Source: Candidatus Gullanella endobia
GTDB taxonomy: Bacteria > Pseudomonadota > Gammaproteobacteria > Enterobacterales > Enterobacteriaceae
Assembly (NCBI RefSeq): GCF_900048035.1
Contig: NZ_LN999832.1
Coordinates: 558,001-622,000 of the forward strand
Length of the DNA stretch: 64,000 nt
Reading direction: 5' to 3'
Of the stretch, positions 25,052 to 56,072 are shown piece by piece. Each line of letters opens with the position of its first letter. Position 1 is the first letter of the stretch. A program made the translations under genes and the position numbers. The notes below the pieces were generated by a model that saw nothing but the letters and a program-made list of their open reading frames with translations, was not told the origin of the DNA and made no database searches.

Positions 25052-26077
25052 ATGAAAAATAGTGTTACGTTAAAACCTTTAAACAGTTTTTCTATTGATG
25101 TACGAGCACGGCGTGTGATCACAGTTCATACAGAAGCTGAACTGTTTTTATTATGGCAGAAGGCTATGAACGACGATATGCCGGTTCTTGTATTAGGTGG
25201 GGGTAATAATGTATTATTTATGGAAAACTATGCTGGTACTGTATTACTTAACCGTATTACTGGCGTAAAAATCGAAGAATACCTTGATGTTTGGCATTTG
25301 CATGTTGGTGCTGGAGAAGTTTGGCATCACTTAGTACGCACCTGTCTTGAAAAAAATATACCAGGTCTAGAAAATCTAGCATTGATACCTGGTTATGTTG
25401 GTTCTGCTCCAATCCAGAATATTGGCGCTTATGGTGTTGAATTGAAACAGTTTTGTGATTATGTTGATGTATTACACTTAGAAAGTGGTACCTTACATCG
25501 CTTAAGTGCAACGTCTGAATGTCAATTTGGTTATCGTGACAGTATCTTTAAGCATGCACTACGCGAACATTACATTATTGTTGCAGTTGGACTTAGACTC
25601 CCTAAAGTCTGGCAACCAGTATTAACTTATTGTGGTTTAGCTCATCTAGATCCACAAAAAGTTGCTCCAGGACTAATTTATAATACAGTTTGTACAATGC
25701 GTCAAGCGAAATTACCAAATCCTATGTTACAAGGTAATGCTGGTAGTTTTTTTAAAAATCCAATTATTGATGCCTCGAAAGCGAAACGATTTCTAAGTCG
25801 TTATCCTAATGCCCATTATTACCCTCAACCGAAAGGTGTAATGAGATTAGCAGCAGGTTGGCTTATAGATCATTGCGGACTTAAAGGTTATCGTTTAGGC
25901 AGAGCAGCAGTACATGATAAACAAGCACTAGTTTTGATTAATGCTGATAATGCAACCGGTGAGGATATTGTTGCGTTAGCTCGTTATGTACGTCAACAGG
26001 TTTTAGAGCGTTTTTCTGTCTGGCTTGAACCTGAAGTACAATTTATTGGCGCCTTTGGCGAAATAGATGTATTATGA
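25052..26077 (+). CDS. murB: UDP-N-acetylenolpyruvoylglucosamine reductase MurB
   Basis: MurB reduces UDP-GlcNAc-enolpyruvate to UDP-MurNAc with NADPH and FAD, the second committed step of peptidoglycan synthesis. The 341 residues (E. coli 342) show the FAD-binding block [10 protein letters not shown], where E. coli has LGEGSNVLF. The diphosphate loop [24 protein letters not shown] with the active-site Tyr and Arg, [10 protein letters not shown] with the catalytic Ser, and LEPEV with the catalytic Glu are also seen. This is a type I MurB. It overlaps birA by 4 nt (ATGA), as in E. coli where murB-birA are coupled. Confidence 0.97.
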
Positions 26078-51024: not shown

Positions 51025-51588
51025 TTAGCATTTATGTTCAATATTTTCGATACGAGTATTTTGATACTCATGCTGAAAAAGGCACATACGCAACGTATTT
51101 CGATATTTTCCATTAATAAAAAACTCTTGAAGTAAAACTCCTTCCTGCTTGAAGCCCATTTTAGTATAAATATGAATAGCTTTCTTATTTTCTTCATCAA
51201 CGATTAAATACAATTTATGTAGATTAAGCACCATAAAACCGAAATTCATTGCCAAATGAGTTGCTATGCTGGCATAACCTTTACCCTGATGCTCAGGAGC
51301 TACTAAAATAGAAAACTCAGCTCGTCGATGAATATGATCGATATCTACTAACTCAACTAATCCAATGCTTACACCAAGTTTATCAATAATAAATCGACGT
51401 TCACTTATATTATGAATGTTCTTTTGATAAAGATCTTTCAACTCTAAATAAGCTTCATGTGGTTCTTCAAACCAATATCGCATCATTATCTCATTATTAT
51501 TAAGTTGATGAATAAAATGTAAATCTTCACGTTCCAAAGGACGAAGTTTGATATGATCATCCTCTGAATATTGTCTATATGATTCCAT
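51025..51588 (-). CDS. speG: Spermidine N1-acetyltransferase SpeG
   Basis: SpeG (GNAT family) acetylates spermidine and spermine to relieve polyamine excess. The 187 residues (E. coli 186) align throughout: [51 protein letters not shown], the acetyl-CoA loop [10 protein letters not shown] and [21 protein letters not shown]. The catalytic Tyr region (IYTKMGF) is present. No polyamine synthesis gene lies here, and speA and speB are missing from their E. coli position next to metK. An intact polyamine-detoxifying enzyme in a genome this reduced suggests the host cell supplies, or overloads it with, polyamines. Confidence 0.95.
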
Positions 51589-54164
51589 TATTGTATTCTC
51601 AAAATACTTAAGTTAAAATATAATAAAATTTATTAAAATCAGCTATTTATAAAAAATAATGATAAAAATCTGAAATAATTATACAAATATTTAACACTAC
51701 TATAGTGTACATCATTATTATCAAAGATATAGACATAATAATAAAAATAATACATAATATAAATTAACTTACATAAGAAATATCTATAAGCATAGATTTG
51801 ATTATAGACTATAATAGAATGAGTAAAAATAACATTTCTTATTATAACTGAATAAGAATGTATTAGTTTTTATAAAAATTAGAAGATTCCTTAATTAGAA
51901 AGATACAAATAATTAGTACAATAACATAAATCAATAAATAGAGATAAGTTATAAATAATTCTAAAAATATCATTACATTATAAAATATAAAATTTTTGCC
52001 AATGAAAATAGTGTGATAAAACATATATTTTATATATAGAGATCTACATGAAAAGTTCATATACTAGTATACTTAAATTTTTAAAAATATAGTATTCACT
52101 ATATAATTATATGACGAATAAAGTTATTATTCGAGCAGAATGCTATAGAAAAATTATTAGCGGTAGTATTCTAAAATTAATATTAATCAATAATAATAAC
52201 TAGAGATTATTAAAACTACTGAGTAGATTATCATTGTTCTTGTTATTTTAAATAATATTAAAAATTAAAAACTAATATCATTAAATATTAATTTAATTCG
52301 ATAAAAAGTTATTATTATAAATATTTTCATCTAATTAGGTATAAAAAACTATAATAAATATCATAATTGCTATAATATAACTCTTAATTAAGATAATTTA
52401 ATACAAAATAAACAAATCTTTACGTATACTAAAAATATATTAACTAGATTTATATTAACTTTTCTATAGAAAAGTATATTAATTTATTTTTAGAAAATTG
52501 AGTAAGATAGTGATTATTAGTTAATTATGATATAATTAATTTTTATTTTATTTATTAGTTATAGATAACACTGAGAAAATAAACTTCTCAATAAATAGAT
52601 AATAATTTTATATTTCTTTCATGTTTTATTTTTTAAAAAACTAAAATTAAATTACTTAATTACTTCTCTATTTTATCTATTTATAAGTTCATCATTGATA
52701 TCATCATATTCAATTTATATATAGCAGTAAATAAACTAATTTATGTTTCTATAGTATTTACTAATGTCAATATTTTATGAAATACTGGTATTAACTTATT
52801 CTATTTGTATAAATAGCTATTGTTTAATTTTTTAATATTACTATTTATAGTAATTAATATTTTTATATGAAAGTATTTTTATTTTTATAAAATTACATTT
52901 TTATTTTTAATTTTATAAACTTTCTATTAAAATTTATAAAAATTTTGACATTATAAATTTAATATTGAATTACGATGTATTTATTTTTTTGATCTATTTT
53001 TATCGACTATAAACAATTCTGTTTTTTGTTAGAATTTATTGGATTATATAATATCTTAAAATATATTTCATCATACTATTCTATGTTAATATTCGATATT
53101 GTTTCTATTTTATTTACAACTACTTAATGACTCTTTTATTAACCAATAAAAATATATTATAAATATTTACCTTACTAATTAAAATAATATAGATTTTTAT
53201 TTTTATAAATTTTAATGGCTGCCTGTATTATCATTAGTTGATTGATTTCATTAAAAAAAGATATTATTCTCGCCGATCTTTTGTTAAAAAAATCAAATCG
53301 TATACTAATACGATTTAGATAATTAATTAGAAAATCTGTTCTTTGTATAAATTAACTTATTGGAATATGTTATATCAACTTGATATTTATAATAACAAAA
53401 GGAGATATTTATTATAAATATTTAGTAAAATCTACTCTAGATGAAAATATTTTAAAAGTACAAACTAAAATATTTATTGAAATTAAAAAATAAATGTTCT
53501 TGATAAATAACTTATAAAAGCTTATAGATATTTTATATTTTCTAAAAAATATTATAGTGCAATAGTAAATGTGAGGGGGATTTAGGAAATGCTATGCTAG
53601 CTAGATAATTTTGTCATTTATTATTTTTATCTCTAACTTTATTAATTATATATATTGATAAAGTATATCAATATAACTTGAATGTTATTAAACAAAATTA
53701 ATTTTTGGATTAATTGCGCTATTCTTCTTTATTTAACGTTAATTTCTATTTGTATAGAATACGATAATCTATTTTTTCTTCTATTATAGAAGAACTATAA
53801 TCTATTAACTATTATTAAAAAAAACATAAATTCATTATCCACATAAGTAACAAAATCAACTAAAGAGTTAGCATAATAGTCTTTATTACGAATATATACA
53901 ACGCTAAATCTAGCGTTTGTTTAATAACAAGTTAATTATATAATATACCAATTATTTTAACATGGGTTTAGCTATTTGACAGTATAGATTGTTAGAAAAT
54001 ATAAGGCATTAAATTAAGAATCATTATCTTTCTATAATAGAATATTATTTTTATAACTGTTTCACTAATCTAATTAGAAAAATACCTTATTTCACCATTT
54101 AACTTTTTTATTATAAATATAAGTATAATATTAAAAATTAATCTATTCTAGTGAGAATATCAAG
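51589..54164. other. 2.6-kb gene desert
   Basis: No gene or readable remnant was found. The DNA is almost entirely A/T, apart from a short G-run at 53573-53579 (GAGGGGG). Confidence 0.7.
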
Positions 54165-55172
54165 ATGCTGATTCCAAAACCCTATTTGCTTTTTCTTGGC
54201 GATATTACAGACCCCTTAGCAGAGAAAACTGCGCGTGGTATCCAGGTTTGGCGTCCAGATTATTGTCTTGGTCAATTGCGGTTACCAGGTTGTACGGTTT
54301 CCCTTGGTCTAGATGATTTCTCTGTTGAAGCAGCCTGGGCAGCTGGCGCTAAAACATTGGTTCTTGGCGTAGCAAATGCTGGTGGTTTTTTACCTCAACA
54401 TTGGATTGATACAATACGTTCTGCCATTTGTACTGGTATGAATGTTGTTAGCGGTCTACATGAAAAATTATCTTCAATGCCTGAATTAGCAAAATTGGCG
54501 AAACAACGGGGTGTTACGTTATTTGATATTCGCCATATACGGCCAAATTTAAGAGTTGGAAATGGGAAACAGCGTAGCGGTAAGCGCATTTTAACAGTAG
54601 GGACTGATTGTTCAGTAGGAAAGATGTATGCTTCATTAGCATTAGAAGAAGATATGCGGAAACGCGGTATGGATGTTAATTTTCGTGCTACTGGCCAAAC
54701 CGGTATCTTGATAGCCGGGGAAGGAATTGCTATAGACGCCATAGTAGCTGATTTTATCTCTGGTGCTGTGGAAGCATTATCCCCGGCTAATAATATTAAT
54801 CATTGGGATATTATCGAAGGACAAGGATCTTTGTTTCATCCTTCTTATGCTGGAGTTAGTATGGGTCTACTTCATGGAGCTCAGCCACAATGGTTAGTAA
54901 TGTGTCATGAGATGAATCGTCTACACATGCGTCATCTTCCACATCAACCGATGGTAAAATTAGATGTATGCGTAGATGCTAATTTGCGTGCAGCAGCAGT
55001 CACATGTCGTAACGTTAAATTAGCAGGGTTCGCTATTAACACCTCCAACGTTAGTAATTCAAAAGCTCGTAACTATTGTCATCTTTTAAGAAAAAGATTC
55101 GGTGTACCAGCAACTGATCCATTACGATTTGGTATTGGTGAAATTACTACTCTACTCCAAAAGCAAACGTAA
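54165..55172 (+). CDS. DUF1611 family protein (DgcN-like, possible D-glutamate N-acetyltransferase)
   Basis: The 335 residues form the two-part DUF1611 architecture. The N-terminal domain (about 1-135) has KPYLLFLGDITDPLAEKTARG and LVLGVANAGGFLP. The C-terminal P-loop-like domain (about 140-335) has VGTDCSVGKMYASLAL at 145-160, TGQTGILIAGEGIAID, and EGQGSLFHPSYAG near 218-230. Members of the family characterised as DgcN are reported to N-acetylate D-glutamate, and these genes often neighbour a dipeptide epimerase gene (dgcA/ycjG type). No such partner is seen here. The frame is intact and its coding sequence is visibly richer in G+C than the DNA around it. It has no E. coli positional counterpart. 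Substrate assignment is tentative. Confidence 0.8.
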   Translation: MLIPKPYLLFLGDITDPLAEKTARGIQVWRPDYCLGQLRLPGCTVSLGLDDFSVEAAWAAGAKTLVLGVANAGGFLPQHWIDTIRSAICTGMNVVSGLHEKLSSMPELAKLAKQRGVTLFDIRHIRPNLRVGNGKQRSGKRILTVGTDCSVGKMYASLALEEDMRKRGMDVNFRATGQTGILIAGEGIAIDAIVADFISGAVEALSPANNINHWDIIEGQGSLFHPSYAGVSMGLLHGAQPQWLVMCHEMNRLHMRHLPHQPMVKLDVCVDANLRAAAVTCRNVKLAGFAINTSNVSNSKARNYCHLLRKRFGVPATDPLRFGIGEITTLLQKQT

Positions 55173-56072
55173 ATACTACATTTTAATGATTAAAATGATA
55201 AATCTGAAATTAATTCAACTGAAAAATTTATTATACAGATATAAATAACAAATAGCATATAGATATTTAGTAATGAAATAATTATTTATTATTTTTACAA
55301 CATTAATAATATAACATCAATTATGTTTTAACTAATGTTTATTAATTACAGTAGCACTGTAATGTTAAAGTATATCTATTTATCTAATAAAACCAAAGAT
55401 TACTGAATAGGTTAAGATTCATTTATTAATATGATAGCAATATATTATTATATAAGCTAAATATAGATCATTAACAAACTAGTATTATTCACGCTATATG
55501 ACTGACTAACTATATTTTTCACAGATTTTATTTTAATGTTAATAGTATTTGGAACGTAATTATACTATTAAAATTATAGTAAATATAAATATATCTTCAA
55601 GATAATAAATAATAATCAATAATCTGCTATTAGTCTAACATAATAAGAAAATTGAACTTTATTATAAAAAATAAGATTTAATTATTAATAAAGCTTATTT
55701 GTAAAATAATTTAAAGGTTTATTAGAATGATAATATAAAAATTAAGAAAGATTTGCTAAAAATATAAACACTGCTATTTGCTTATAGCAAATTAATTATT
55801 CATAATATATTAAAATATCATATAGCACATTTAGCATTTTAATATTAGCGTAGGTAATGTTCGAAGGAAAATTTTTTAAATAGTTTTAAACATAAATCTA
55901 TTACTTTTTGTCGAATAAAAGTAATTGAATTATGAATAATAAAAATATTTGAATAAAGGCATATTAAGCTTAATAGATAACAAAAATTTCTCTTTTATAT
56001 TATTGAAAATAAAATTATATTATCTTTTCTACAAAGAATTTTCTATTGTAATAATAAATCATTTTTAATATA
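55173..56072. other. 0.9-kb gene-less spacer
   Basis: No gene was seen. A small stem (ATTTGCT, loop TAT, AGCAAAT) occurs near 55777-55793. Confidence 0.6.

Follow-up and report, generated by a model that had tools for sequence, protein, structure and literature searches.

A lone dgcN gene kept under purifying selection in the reduced genome of Candidatus Gullanella endobia

Candidatus Gullanella endobia, which we take to be the symbiont of the mealybug Ferrisia virgata, carries in the window analysed here (the whole stretch of 64,000 nucleotides) an intact gene of the D-glutamate N-acetyltransferase (DgcN) family that stands between two stretches of dead DNA (Table 1). The locus raises the question of whether this gene has been kept by selection or is merely slow to decay and, if it has been kept, what an enzyme acting on D-glutamate (D-Glu) could do there. 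The original prediction had proposed a full-length DUF1611/DgcN-like protein, retained in an extremely reduced genome that still makes peptidoglycan. Its identification of the protein and its preference for retention over delayed decay are borne out below, whereas the statement on peptidoglycan needs care. The genome is a single contig of 938,041 bp, for which "reduced" is apt and "extremely" a little strong.

Table 1. Positions of dgcN, its flanks and related genes (window coordinates unless another contig or the genome, G000, is named)
Feature	Position	Strand	Basis or remark
dgcN, D-glutamate N-acetyltransferase family protein, 335 aa, intact	54165..55172	+	ORF, Pfam, NCBIfam, predicted fold
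Upstream dead DNA, G+C 0.167, 2,576 bp	51589..54164		place of LysR-like, EamA-like and TetR genes in G004
Downstream dead DNA, G+C 0.168, 900 bp	55173..56072		place of dgcA, peptidase S58 and peptidase M55 genes in G004
speG, spermidine N1-acetyltransferase; synteny anchor with G004	51025..51588	-	NF011709, 285.3 bits, cut-off 218; 88% identity to the G004 gene
murB, remaining peptidoglycan pathway (context)	25052..26077	+	NF000755, 466.2 bits, cut-off 277
mpl, murein tripeptide ligase, intact	L119:1003-2373; G000 about 461.2-462.6 kb	-	NCBIfam match

The gene, present as a single copy in the genome, is a reading frame of 335 codons without a stop. Its product matches both DUF1611 domains of Pfam (the N- and the C-domain) and passes the NCBIfam DgcN equivalog NF041892 with 504.8 bits against a cut-off of 480, over model positions 1-323 of 326. 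The predicted motifs VGTDCSVGK (residues 145-153) and EGQGS (residues 218-222) are in place, and neither varies among 38 aligned sequences. By sequence, the closest solved chain is the N-acetyltransferase DgcN-25328 (PDB 7xrj; 2e-103, aligned residues 3-330). An AlphaFold2 model made with 38 sequences (mean pLDDT 92.5, pTM 0.88) also finds 7xrj as its best PDB fold match (rank 1, TM 0.91/0.92); the weaker fold matches are nucleotide-binding proteins, and Pfam describes the C-terminal domain of DUF1611 as a P-loop domain. The DUF1611 proteins 2obn and 2g0t have the same two-domain fold as the model, but share only 27-31% identity with the window protein, and their entry titles name no function. 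With the equivalog cut-off passed, all but one of the family-invariant residues kept and the fold of a solved DgcN matched by the predicted model, assignment to the DgcN family is secure at the level of sequence and modelled structure. Around the gene, promoter-like matches are about as frequent as expected by chance (54 found, against a mean of 49.5).

The nearest DgcN to the window protein, at 76% identity, is encoded on the 4,709,528-bp chromosome of a relative (G004) that we take to be Sodalis praecaptivus. The gene order there is speG (minus strand), a LysR-like gene, an EamA-like gene, a TetR gene, dgcN (plus strand), dgcA, and genes for peptidases S58 and M55; the LysR-like and EamA-like names were assigned by reading of the sequence, and the gene after dgcN is identified as dgcA by NF042940 (402.6 bits, cut-off 400). 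In the window, speG is followed 2.6 kb on by dgcN in the same order and orientation, and these two genes are all that is retained of the stretch. The original prediction gave dgcN no positional counterpart in E. coli; in G004 it does have one, next to speG. The other six neighbours were not found in the flanks by tblastn (best E 5.7), nor in a wider stretch, where the best match (E 0.23) lies inside speG. The 2.6 kb and 0.9 kb of dead DNA that had been described on either side of dgcN are thus real, and the six genes are unrecognisable there. In a quick tree of DgcN proteins, the window and G004 sequences are paired (SH-aLRT 97); the window end branch measures 0.46 and that of G004 0.13, and the comparison genes described below are lengthened too. 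Horizontal gain of dgcN is rejected because of the synteny with G004 and this tree. Gene order and phylogeny show the gene to be vertically inherited; it descends from a Sodalis-like dgcN-dgcA-peptidase operon that has lost its remaining genes.

Some observations concern the surroundings of the gene. The neighbouring speG is likewise isolated by dead DNA, which makes it a second lone N-acetyltransferase gene beside dgcN. A 7-pair palindrome at 53900-53917, in the upstream dead DNA, is terminator-like on both strands (2 sites versus a mean of 0.7 in shuffled sequences). In Acerihabitans arboris (L011:6001-8938), the gene directly after dgcN encodes a peptide-type ABC transporter ATPase, and no dgcA intervenes; a free-living relative, too, can thus have dgcN with no dgcA next to it.

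Several lines of evidence bear on whether dgcN is maintained or only slow to decay. Its G+C content is 0.415 (GC1 0.552, GC2 0.439, GC3 0.254), compared with about 0.17 in the flanks. The 32 other window genes listed have GC3 values of 0.172-0.330, so that dgcN lies within their range, while the same gene in G004 has a GC3 of 0.72. With GC3 at the symbiont level and GC1 and GC2 kept, the silent sites have evidently drifted to the symbiont's own bias and the coding positions have stayed. Alignment of 106 DgcN proteins gives 51 columns that are invariant among the 105 relatives, and the window protein differs at one of them. It also differs at one of the 83 columns that are at least 95% conserved, the change being the same V-to-I replacement in both cases. 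When each of the other 105 proteins is left out in turn, 12 depart at least as often at invariant columns and 44 at the ≥95% columns. Between the window gene and its G004 counterpart, 74% of 4-fold degenerate sites differ (n=139) and only 11% of second codon positions; the 4-fold divergence is saturated. The protein identity of 76% is near that of other kept genes (fmt 73%, hemW 74%, mutY 72%, smg 76%, def 72%).

The relative rate gives the same picture. The length of the window branch of dgcN divided by the free-living distance is 0.96, and 3 of the 21 comparison genes have lower ratios (range 0.74-10.69). The comparison was drawn from 33 window genes: murB, birA, thiD and recG were not entered, tuf has no G004 sequence, and speG, yggT, hemW and mutY have no outgroup sequence and hence no branch ratio. 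The low ratios of mltC and mscS (0.04 and 0.25) were set aside, as the outgroup identities of 0.28 and 0.56-0.62 indicate probable paralogues. Unconstrained drift was simulated from the present dgcN with an equilibrium G+C of 0.17 and three transition biases, and a gene was counted as surviving if its frame stayed free of stops and no more than one of the 51 invariant columns had newly changed; the simulation contains no indels and is therefore lenient. At 0.02 substitutions per site the probability that such a gene is left is 0.09-0.10; it falls to 0.022-0.025 when drift reaches 0.03 substitutions per site, and to 0.0005-0.0015 at 0.05. Together with the saturated 4-fold sites, the simulation implies that constraint held over nearly the whole dgcN branch. 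Hence dgcN has been under purifying selection over nearly all of this branch, in a comparison with other genera rather than close strains. Neither base composition nor the invariant columns, the relative rate or the simulation supports delayed decay, and the agreement of the four bears out the retention originally proposed.

The distribution of dgcN among relatives is patchy. In a set of 99 relatives, none of which is marked as being of the same genus, 18 genomes have a DgcN match and 13 pass the cut-off, the window genome included. None of the 22 other genomes of the same family below 1.5 Mb (rounded sizes) in this set has a match. In a sample of 392 genomes of the family, in which most unmatched genomes are unlisted, 58 match and 52 pass, again with the window genome included; after the window genome, the smallest one to pass the cut-off measures 3.5 Mb. 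In a relative with a 4,513,140-bp genome (G026), presumably Sodalis pierantonius, dgcN is broken: the matches carry one TAA and one TGA, and the open frame is 227 aa. A further broken copy, in G028, was not counted as evidence of loss, since metK and fmt are broken there too. Loss in sister lineages had been named as an observation that would point to a gene not yet decayed, and it is seen in part, in the small genomes and in G026. These losses indicate that retention of dgcN is particular to the window lineage.

To ask what the retained protein could do, the whole genome was searched for Pfam families of D-Glu and peptidoglycan enzymes; dgcA or ycjG, murI, mpl and amidase genes had all been singled out beforehand as informative. 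The genome has no MR_MLE_C protein, and therefore no enzyme of the dgcA or ycjG type. This search would see a dgcA, because the DgcA of G004 matches MR_MLE_C at 93.6 bits; controls match in 14 of 14 genomes, 13 of them over the cut-off. No dgcA remnant lies beside dgcN either, so that the DgcN-DgcA catabolic pathway lacks its second enzyme. No glutamate racemase (murI) was found, as nothing in the genome passes the cut-off of Asp_Glu_race; a match at G000:852414 is partial, lies inside panB and was discarded. DAP_epimerase (DapF), MFS_1 transporters and Amidase_2 amidases likewise have no match in the genome. All five of these families match E. coli among the controls. The intact mpl scores 776 bits (cut-off 388.7). 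Murein recycling by Mpl with AmpG and AmpD is thus incomplete: Mpl is present, but MFS_1 and Amidase_2, the families to which we assign AmpG and AmpD, are unmatched.

The peptidoglycan pathway itself is partial. Within the mra cluster, ftsI, murE, murF, mraY, ftsW, murG, ftsQ, ftsA, ftsZ and lpxC are open and each passes its model. The cluster also has gaps of 1.0 kb (L123:11815-12821, G+C 0.22) and 1.5 kb (L123:8064-9556, G+C 0.21), which we take, from the E. coli order, to be the places of murD and of murC-ddlB, respectively. The four Mur_ligase_M proteins of the genome are murE, murF, mpl and folC only, which means that murC and murD are missing. With these two genes and a D-Glu racemase absent from the search results, de novo precursor synthesis is incomplete. 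The view that the symbiont still makes peptidoglycan accordingly holds for the kept genes (murB, murE, murF, mraY, murG and mpl) and fails for murC and murD; precursor synthesis would need enzymes or precursors supplied by a partner, and Mpl could feed preformed L-Ala-D-Glu-mDAP into it. Judged by its gene content, the symbiont has a partial peptidoglycan pathway with Mpl, one enzyme of a family known to act on free D-Glu, and no D-Glu-making enzyme among those searched for. Absence of MurI is not unusual by itself, as the Chlamydiales are described in a review (PMC7154730) as keeping the lipid II pathway except MurI.

DgcN reportedly makes N-acetyl-D-Glu, and DgcA is said to racemise this product. 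The NCBIfam names of the two models agree with such a route, and according to PMC10845958, a paper on Shewanella, DgcN-DgcA leads from D-Glu to L-Glu. The window protein shares full-length homology, fold and all but one of the invariant residues with the DgcN of that pathway, but it is found without DgcA in a 0.94-Mb symbiont-type genome, the bearer of which is not a free-living user of D-Glu. The protein would still use acetyl-CoA to acetylate D-Glu, or an acidic D-amino acid related to it, and, DgcA being absent, N-acetyl-D-Glu would be the end product in the symbiont cell. Retention of dgcN as a stand-alone capping or clearing step on such a substrate is the reading that we favour, with a probability of roughly one half. 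Such a step would keep free D-Glu low, where D-Glu would reach the symbiont only from partners or from wall turnover, and it might also, as originally suggested, limit the release of D-amino acids to the host. No further use for N-acetyl-D-Glu was found in the genome and no source of free D-Glu among the enzyme families searched, and together these results put the substrate of DgcN itself in doubt. Within the collection of papers searched, a whole-word search, which misses plurals, found none joining DgcN with peptidoglycan and symbiont.

Stand-alone capping is placed, at about even odds, ahead of three other explanations. The protein could be what the symbiont contributes to a D-Glu route spread over several partners, the racemase and deacylase steps being carried out in the insect or a co-resident bacterium. 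The combination of unmatched dgcA, murI, dapF, murC and murD with open murB, murE, murF, mraY, murG and mpl is the pattern of a shared pathway, but all of this is drawn from the symbiont genome, and we know of no partner-encoded DgcA. Partner-supplied precursor enzymes have been described for the mealybug symbiont Moranella in two reviews (PMC12176269 and PMC7154730); even so, we regard this explanation as rather unlikely. Slightly less probable still is a changed function, in which dgcN is retained because its product binds nucleotides or acts on something other than D-Glu, for example L-Glu or a different amine. The ancestral context has gone with DgcA and the D-Glu sources that were looked for, and the P-loop description and the weaker fold matches fit nucleotide binding; on the other hand, the window protein has kept 50 of the 51 residues that are invariant in the family. 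Arginine precursor synthesis was rejected as a role here, since the sole AA_kinase protein of the genome is pyrH (TIGR02075), so that neither argA nor argB is present.

We give a similarly low probability to a gene that was constrained until very lately and is now being lost. The operon partners of dgcN are gone, the gene is broken in the 4.5-Mb relative, and all 22 other small genomes of the family are without a match, as would be expected of such a relic. The simulation, however, limits any neutral time to about 0.03 substitutions per site, whereas 4-fold divergence is saturated. The flanks are erased as well, and the two observations together indicate that the operon partners went long before any release of dgcN.

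The DgcN family is already known, and what is unusual is that a member stands alone in this genome, retained without its usual partners. The mosaic peptidoglycan synthesis of mealybug symbionts, as outlined for Moranella in sections of PMC12176269 and PMC7154730, likewise has early precursor enzymes missing and late ones kept; the symbiont studied here differs in that it encodes murE and murF, keeps mpl and adds dgcN. According to the same sources, precursor enzymes encoded by a mealybug host probably work inside a comparable symbiont, which makes a supply of D-Glu by a partner plausible. As a speculative extension that we consider improbable in its full form, the solitary DgcN might be part of a D-Glu economy split among insect and bacterial partners, in which D-Glu or precursors that contain it would be received, tripeptide would re-enter via Mpl, surplus D-Glu would be capped, and a partner may racemise or dispose of the product. 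An enzyme expected to act on D-Glu that selection has preserved in a genome lacking the D-Glu-making enzymes searched for makes the origin and fate of D-Glu in the shared peptidoglycan of nested insect symbioses a testable matter.
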